DNA from: an uncultured Poribacteria bacterium
GTDB lineage: Bacteria > Poribacteria > WGA-4E > PCPOR2b
DNA length: 64,000 nt
Direction of reading: 5' to 3'
Assembly (NCBI GenBank): GCA_958296125.1
Contig: OY282444.1
Coordinates: 2,947,623 to 3,011,622 of the forward strand
Below, in pieces: positions 48,336 to 49,537 of the stretch. Every line of letters starts with the position of its first letter. Within the stretch, counting starts at the first letter, position 1. The notes below the pieces were generated by a model, which saw nothing but the letters and a program-made list of their open reading frames with translations, did no database searches and had not been told where the DNA came from. The translations under genes were made by a program, and so were the position numbers.

Positions 48336-49232
48336 CTACTCCCTCAGACTTTTGAGACGCTCCAACCAGATTGCCGCCTGTTGTCGGACCTCATCATTTT
48401 TGGCATCACTTAACTTCTCAAGCGTTGTTATTGCCAATTCGGATTTCTCTTGAACCGCGTAGGTAACCCCCAGATAATATTGCGCGTCTTCATAGAACTT
48501 GCTGTCGGGATAGGTGTTGATGACCTTCTGGAAAAACTTTTCAGCTTTCTGGAAATAGGCCTTCTCATTGTCGCCGGCAGCGTTCTGCCCGTAATGGAGC
48601 GCGAGATTCACATACAACTCCGGTAAAAGCCCCGTTTCGTTGCTTGGATCCTGTTTTACCACCTGATCAAATAGGGGTTTCCCTTGTTCAAGTTTGCCGC
48701 GCTTGATGTAAATCAGTGCGAGGCCAGCGTTAGCCTTTGGGTCCTTTGGATTCTTCTGAACCGCTAGTTGCAACGCCTTAAATGCCTCTTCCTCTTTGAA
48801 GGTACTCTCCATCACTCCAAAAAATTCTTCCGGAGGGCTATAACCGTTGCTGAGACGGATTAAATCCCCCTCGGCATTGAGAAACGCAACCGCCGGAAAT
48901 CCACTGACACCGTATTTGATTCGGGCAGCCTCATTTTCAGGATGGTCTGTATTTTCAGGATTGATCTTGAGGTTGACAAATTTTTTCGAGAGCGCAACGA
49001 TTCTTGGATCTGTGAACGTTTCGGCATCCAGCCGCTTACACCAGCCTCACCACTCGGTGTAGAAGTCCATCATGACTGGCTTGCCTGTTTTTTGAGCTTC
49101 TGCCAATCCTTTCTCGATTGACTCCCCCCACTGAATTTCTTCCGTTGCCAGTGCCACCGAACTTACAACAACAGCCAGCAATAGGGTGGCAAGCGCGATA
49201 TGCTGTCTTTGTCTCCAAACAGAATTTAACAT
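48336..49232 (-). CDS. Exported thioredoxin-fold/TPR protein, candidate selenoprotein (in-frame UGA = Sec62)
   Basis: One frame of 299 codons, interrupted only by a UGA at 49049-49047. ATG 49232 has a strong AAAGGAG site. A signal peptide spans about residues 1-29 (LLLAVVVSSVALA). The thioredoxin fold follows: KPVMMDFYTEW, then UGA at position 62, then GWCKRLD, so the redox motif is U62-G-W-C65. The cis-Pro is P113 in GVSGFPAVAF. TPR repeats occupy about 150-290 (ALQLAVQKNPKDPKANAGLA, YEDAQYYLGVTYAVQEK). Downstream of the UGA lies a hairpin at 49012-49041 fitting a bacterial SECIS. Neighbours use UGA as a stop, so no code change is needed. Alternatively, a single mutation or sequencing error. 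It is probably periplasmic and a disulfide or peroxide reductase (inference). Confidence 0.8.
49012..49041 (-). promoter_or_regulatory. Candidate bacterial SECIS element
   Basis: In the mRNA, the upper stem CGGC/GCCG (49034-49031 with 49025-49022) is capped by UGGAU. The second loop base is G and the loop starts 17 bases after the UGA, compared with 18 in E. coli fdhF from memory. A lower stem pairs GUG(u)AA (49041-49036) with UUCAC, leaving a bulged U and a small internal loop. The arrangement follows the rule of an apical loop about 16-37 bases after the UGA with a G among its first two bases. Confidence 0.65.
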
Positions 49233-49281
49233 CGTTTTCTCCTTTGAAGGAAGTTAGGTATAGAAATTAGAGCCCCCAACA

Positions 49282-49366: not shown

Positions 49367-49537
49367 TCATCGGGAGGCTGGGGTTGTAACTGTTTTGCTG
49401 CTCAATGTTGTGCGGCACTTTTGGCAGGTCGTGATCAATTTCATCAGATTGCTGCGCCTACCTAATTTATTTTGCTTCTGTTCCGTCTCAACGTAGCGTT
49501 TGCAGCGAGGGCACCATTGCTGTTGCTGCGCTAACAT
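49367..49537 (-). CDS. Small zinc-ribbon protein
   Basis: 56 residues, ATG 49537 preceded by GGAGG. Two CxxC pairs, C9-P-R-C12 and C38-Q-K-C41, 25 residues apart, make a zinc-ribbon-like fold. The middle is Lys/Gln/Arg-rich (YVETEQKQNKLGRRSN). The stop lies inside a palindrome (TCCCGATttcATCGGGA). No family name is recognised. It may bind nucleic acid or a protein partner; this is inference. Confidence 0.6.
   Translation of the reverse strand: MLAQQQQWCPRCKRYVETEQKQNKLGRRSNLMKLITTCQKCRTTLSSKTVTTPASR

Follow-up and report, generated by a model that had tools for sequence, protein, structure and literature searches.

A UGA codon at the thioredoxin active site of a probable exported selenoprotein with a TPR domain in Candidatus Poribacteria

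In a thioredoxin-like gene of an uncultured Candidatus Poribacteria bacterium, a UGA codon stands exactly where the first cysteine of the CxxC motif would lie, which raises the question of whether this codon ends a dead gene, acts as a functional stop or is read as an amino acid and, if so, which one. The window analysed, a stretch of 64,000 nucleotides, belongs to a closed single-contig assembly of 5,156,246 bases, and the gene lies on its minus strand. The original prediction was of an exported selenoprotein with the UGA at the first cysteine of the thioredoxin (Trx) CxxC and a frame continuing beyond it with TPRs and a conserved proline, and the UGA, the continuing frame, the TPRs and the proline were all confirmed (Table 1). 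The coding frame runs from the ATG at 49232 to 48339, followed by a TAG stop at 48336-48338, and comprises 298 codons including UGA62, its one in-frame stop; 236 sense codons remain open past the UGA, and the protein read through has 298 residues. The active site reads U-G-W-C, Cys65 being the sole cysteine of the protein, and the signal-peptide-like N-terminus, as read from the sequence, has an AxA-like site with an invariant Ala29 and no lipobox cysteine. The best explanation as a whole, to which we give a probability of about 0.93, is that UGA62 encodes selenocysteine (Sec) in an exported Trx-TPR oxidoreductase; the product is very probably an exported protein that resembles thioredoxin and contains selenium.

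Table 1. Features of the selenoprotein gene, in window coordinates.
Feature	Position	Strand	Basis
Selenoprotein gene, exported Trx-fold/TPR protein (predicted)	48336..49232	-	ORF reading, homologue search, alignment
Shine-Dalgarno-like AGGAG, 6 nt ahead of ATG	49239..49243	-	sequence
Predicted signal peptide, residues 1-29 (MLNSVWRQRQHIALATLLLAVVVSSVALA)	49146..49232	-	sequence reading
Thioredoxin-fold domain, residues 35-145, Thioredoxin_7 / Thioredoxin_2	48798..49130	-	Pfam, structure comparison
UGA62, probable Sec codon at the first position of the UGWC active site	49047..49049	-	translation, homologue alignment
Cys65 (TGT), putative resolving Cys, invariant	49038..49040	-	alignment
bSECIS upper hairpin CGGC-UGGAU-GCCG (candidate)	49022..49034	-	comparative analysis of homologues
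Hairpin 5' arm	49031..49034	-	
Hairpin loop	49026..49030	-	
Hairpin 3' arm	49022..49025	-	
Pro113, invariant, at cis-Pro place of thioredoxin fold (predicted from position)	48894..48896	-	alignment
TPR region (residues 147-298), similar to the TPRs of YbgF/CpoB and BamD	48339..48794	-	Pfam, predicted fold comparison

A search of 85 genomes of the phylum recovered the gene in 72 of the 73 genomes of the same order and in one genome from another family of the class. When genes were extracted from these loci with TGA read as U and frames split at TAA and TAG, the aligned codon was TGA in all 122 Poribacteria loci covering it (duplicates included; 77 distinct genes), and neither TAA, TAG nor a Cys codon was found at this position among the Poribacteria Trx-TPR copies that cover it. 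Downstream of the UGA, dN/dS was 0.05-0.20 in 10/10 same-genus pairs, the TPR part included, and by this measure the region is under purifying selection. Taken alone, the ORF is split by the stop into 61 and 236 codons, as would be the case in a pseudogene in which a nonsense mutation, or a sequencing error, had introduced a UGA that ends a dead gene. However, the identical TGA, never TAA or TAG, recurs in every copy from Poribacteria, across assemblies that are independent of one another, the sequence beyond it has remained under selection, synonymous codons are frozen only within the hairpin described below and the full Sec machinery is present in the genome. Because the UGA is conserved in more than 70 genomes, a decayed or misread gene is refuted, its probability being close to nil, and the locus is better read as a selenoprotein gene, as originally proposed. 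The three checks suggested with that proposal, on the Sec genes, the aligned homologues and the hairpin, all turned out in its favour. The sole genome of the order without the Trx-TPR selenoprotein (G010, 95% complete) retains selB and a double-Sec peroxiredoxin. A more divergent Sec form of the Trx-TPR protein (L198-L203), with motifs such as DSUYWC, also exists, and several genomes of genus g6 carry it in addition to the main copy.

Alignment of homologues at position 62 showed UGA to be fixed within Poribacteria and Cys to be present in other phyla. Cys, encoded by TGC or TGT, occupies the aligned codon in 57 rows, two of which are poribacterial DsbD whereas 55 are from other phyla, including Armatimonadota, Spirochaetota, Zixibacteria, Omnitrophota and Planctomycetota. 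These Cys homologues were gathered by a peptide pattern containing DFYT[DE]WC, which is blind to Sec forms, so that the result does not show that Sec forms are lacking outside Poribacteria. Phylogenetic reconstruction from the Trx domain placed the poribacterial Sec proteins of the order in a single supported group (98/97), next to and interspersed with Cys proteins, with the sole exception of the long-branched L204, which fell elsewhere; this topology is consistent with, but no proof of, a single replacement of Cys by Sec. The Cys homologues also bear on the possibility of regulated termination, whereby the UGA would be a functional stop or switch giving rise to a short exported peptide or allowing selenium-dependent Sec insertion, with the long form as a minor product. 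In bacteria, release factors compete with the decoding of UGA, and the short form would include the signal peptide, but the 61-residue product would amount to a partial Trx fold devoid of the catalytic site, the Cys homologues have no stop at the aligned codon and it is the part downstream of the UGA that is under purifying selection, so that regulated termination appears very improbable.

A frame that is open when TGA is taken as a sense codon would also be expected if UGA were reassigned to a different residue, for instance Trp, Gly or Cys, as happens in codes 4 and 25. Against this, TGA terminates 13 of the 37 long ORFs in the window and lies 4-10 codons beyond the aligned C-terminus in homologues L052, L054, L177 and L189, while UGA62 aligns with Cys only and is accompanied by both a SECIS-like hairpin and the Sec machinery. 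As TGA serves as a normal stop, reassignment is excluded in practice. Decoding as Sec, in turn, finds its components in the genome, where selA, selB, selC and selD are all present. The tRNA-Sec gene (76.6 bits, cut-off 47; called by ARAGORN as tRNA-SeC with anticodon tca) is adjoined by selB (370 bits) and selA (601 bits), and selD (370 bits) has TGA as its own catalytic codon, within a CGUAAK motif. The latter gene (L024:1048-3483, plus strand) is thus a selenoprotein gene itself. Among relatives, selB was found in 57 of 59, both of those without a match being assemblies that are 80-81% complete.

In bacteria, Sec insertion requires a hairpin shortly 3' of the UGA. The candidate identified here has a 4-bp stem and a UGGAU loop, with 16 nt from the UGA to the loop. 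The published bSECIS model allows 4-16 bp for the stem, 3-9 nt for the loop, in which a G must come early, and 16-37 nt for the distance from the UGA, and sets an MFE <= -7.5 (PMC13188914); this MFE was reached in 66/69 Sec genes when the UGA and the following 39 nt were folded. The original prediction of a SECIS-like hairpin at the right distance was upheld by comparison, through conservation across these 69 genes with compensatory change, but not by the single window sequence, which was not significant: folded alone, its hairpin was no better than shuffles, and 44% of its synonymous recodings passed loose bSECIS rules. A scan of the window against Rfam gave no family match, a null result that does not count against the hairpin, for which the support comes from comparison instead. 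Among the 69 Sec genes, chosen to differ pairwise by at least 5%, the choice of synonymous codon was almost unconstrained elsewhere in the gene (mean H/H0 0.81) but strongly restricted in codons +5 to +10 (0.24). The frozen codons are CGG (61/62), CTG (69/69), GAT (66/69), GCC (62/69) and GAA (42/42); elsewhere, CTG makes up only about 16% of Leu codons. All four hairpin pairs are present in 62 of the 69 Sec genes but in none of the 55 Cys homologues. In six genes, corresponding to five distinct rows, CAG at the Arg codon coincides with GCT at the Ala codon, which replaces a G-C pair with A-U, and the covariation score was reached by 0/500 shuffles. The stem has only 4 bp, and the double changes affect one pair and occur in related sequences, so that the frozen codons constitute stronger evidence than the covariation. 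Comparison across homologues thus makes a clear case for a significant hairpin, although the window sequence by itself provides little evidence. The pairs of a possible lower stem (UGU/ACG) are often broken (54/69 and 55/69) and RNAalifold omits it, so that no such stem is claimed.

The N-terminal domain matched PF13899 (Thioredoxin_7, 59.1 bits) and PF13098 (Thioredoxin_2, 53.7 bits), both above the Pfam gathering cut-off of 27, and the TPR matches also exceeded the Pfam gathering score. The AlphaFold2 model (mean pLDDT 92) predicts with high confidence that the thioredoxin domain resembles DsbD-gamma and DsbH and that a TPR domain follows it. The structure nearest to the Trx domain was an exported cytochrome c biogenesis-related domain of Bacteroides (Z 17.3), with Z 16.5 for DsbH and about 16 for DsbD-gamma, while the TPR part matched YbgF (Z 15.9) and BamD (Z 14.6). 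DsbD-gamma and DsbH are among the best-matching solved structures, the identity to DsbD-gamma being 26-28%, but the protein described here has no membrane domain, carries TPRs and has Sec in place of Cys. It falls outside the curated families that were considered: the DsbD and DsbH models of NCBIfam scored 59.1 and 39.5 bits against cut-offs of 330 and 190, respectively, and the Trx7/PDZ (seleno)protein NF041199, which has PDZ instead of TPRs, scored 30.3 bits against a cut-off of 300. The best NCBIfam match, at 84.2 bits against a cut-off of 805, was to TsoB (NF045694), a rhodanese/DsbD fusion-like selenoprotein, and was confined to its C-terminal DsbD-like part (model positions 432-570, 139/572 matched), the rhodanese part having no counterpart here; TsoB is catalogued with a UxxxxU motif and 2 Sec (PMC13188914). 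The same curated families recurred as matches across 20 aligned members.

The domain order, with an N-terminal thioredoxin fold followed by TPRs, is shared with the chaperedoxin CnoX/YbbN, and YbbN was among the top Foldseek matches, but the whole-length rmsd of about 20 indicates that the domains are arranged differently. CnoX/YbbN is a cytosolic Trx-TPR protein that acts with GroEL and is not known to contain Sec, whereas the protein here combines a probable Sec codon with a signal-peptide-like N-terminus. This likeness, together with purifying selection on the TPR domain, lends some weight to a selenoprotein without a function in disulfide exchange, which might instead be a periplasmic peroxide or sulfoxide reductase partner, or a CnoX/YbbN-like chaperone holding oxidised clients. 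Such a role is conceivable but rather doubtful, given the poor superposition onto full-length YbbN, the greater proximity of the Trx domain to DsbD-gamma and DsbH and the cytosolic location of YbbN. The most likely role is that of a periplasmic thiol-disulfide oxidoreductase with a Sec62-Cys65 pair and a TPR docking module; its export, chemistry, donor and client, as well as the role of the TPRs, we infer from sequence and fold resemblance. On the basis of comparative genomics, SelB and Sec-tRNA-Sec would recognise CGGC-UGGAU-GCCG 16 nt past the UGA, and Sec62 would be inserted to yield the 298-residue protein, which the N-terminal signal peptide would direct to export. Sec62 may then attack a disulfide or other oxidised sulfur of a periplasmic partner, and Cys65 would resolve the mixed selenosulfide, leaving a Sec62-Cys65 bond to be reduced by a membrane donor. 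The obvious candidate for this donor is the DsbD-like protein of the genome (L206, WCAAC motif), encoded elsewhere, while the TPR domain may dock the client or tether the enzyme to a complex of the envelope. The L206 gene was also considered as a selenoprotein candidate owing to an in-frame TGA near its end, which was taken as an ordinary stop because WCAAC forms the Trx site and the domain ends before the TGA.

Five further redoxin-family ORFs of the same genome have an in-frame TGA at or beside the catalytic position. These additional ORFs support active Sec decoding and suggest a selenium-rich redox system. One of them (L212:377-1375, minus strand; G000:C1:3702776-3703774) is a single ORF in which a pair of AhpC/TSA domains is combined with two TGAs in frame, each within FTGGU, and with a signal-peptide-like N-terminus; it reads as a tandem peroxiredoxin with two Sec, and most of the 24 relatives searched have homologues that likewise carry 2 TGA. 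The other four (L213, L214, L215 and L216, at G000:C1:4918700, 1187800, 4810900 and 3735400) have TGA in the catalytic motif, the motifs being SWUPFC, TWUPNS, TYUPHC and AYUPKD. It may be speculated that a selenium-based pathway operates in the envelope, in which the exported Sec-Trx, docked through its TPRs, would reduce or recycle the exported-looking two-Sec peroxiredoxin, as a relay from one selenoprotein to another against oxidants in the sponge host, although we consider this unlikely. Another locus, L223, with a carboxymuconolactone decarboxylase-like match, carries both TGA and TAG.

A recent catalogue (2026) lists 119 selenoprotein families, several of which are of the UxxC thioredoxin-fold type, and its Table 1 includes a Sec-containing thioredoxin and a PF13098 'thiol:disulfide interchange protein' with UxxC (PMC13188914). 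These share with the protein described here the thioredoxin fold, the N-terminal Sec of UxxC and the bacterial in-frame SECIS, but the latter differs in being TPR-fused, predicted to be exported and spread across Candidatus Poribacteria. Selenium at the catalytic position of an exported Trx-fold/TPR protein was held to be unusual in the original prediction; it is less so than claimed, since Trx-fold proteins with Sec as the first active-site residue are an established kind of selenoprotein (PMC13188914). What is new is the fusion to TPRs and the fixation throughout an order of a phylum of sponge symbionts. An exported Trx-TPR selenoprotein is absent from the table of the catalogue, the text of which contains neither 'TPR' nor 'Poribacteria' (PMC13188914). 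A literature search found no paper combining 'Poribacteria' with 'selenoprotein', and the literature with 'Poribacteria' and 'selenocysteine' does not describe the Trx-TPR protein. Most bins of sponge symbionts, which belong to various phyla, have been reported to encode SelA together with SelB, both of which most of their close references lack, in a text from which the word 'selenoprotein' is absent (PMC5649159). Where the UGA is annotated as a stop, the gene would be called as two fragments or as a pseudogene in each of these genomes, and its recognition extends the bacterial selenoproteome by a Trx-TPR architecture. It also provides a clean comparative case of a short bSECIS hairpin that is revealed because synonymous codons are frozen and one pair has undergone a compensatory change, and it points to the use of selenium in redox enzymes of Poribacteria, which are uncultured sponge symbionts.

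The gene order yidC-jag-mnmE-mini-ORF-Trx-TPR selenoprotein gene is kept across Poribacteria families, whereas argH and an M81 gene downstream of this block are found in close relatives only. The ORF between mnmE and the selenoprotein gene (window 49370-49537, minus strand) encodes 56 amino acids with two CxxC pairs in a zinc-ribbon-like arrangement; it gave no match against Pfam and is present in almost all Poribacteria loci with 53-86% identity.
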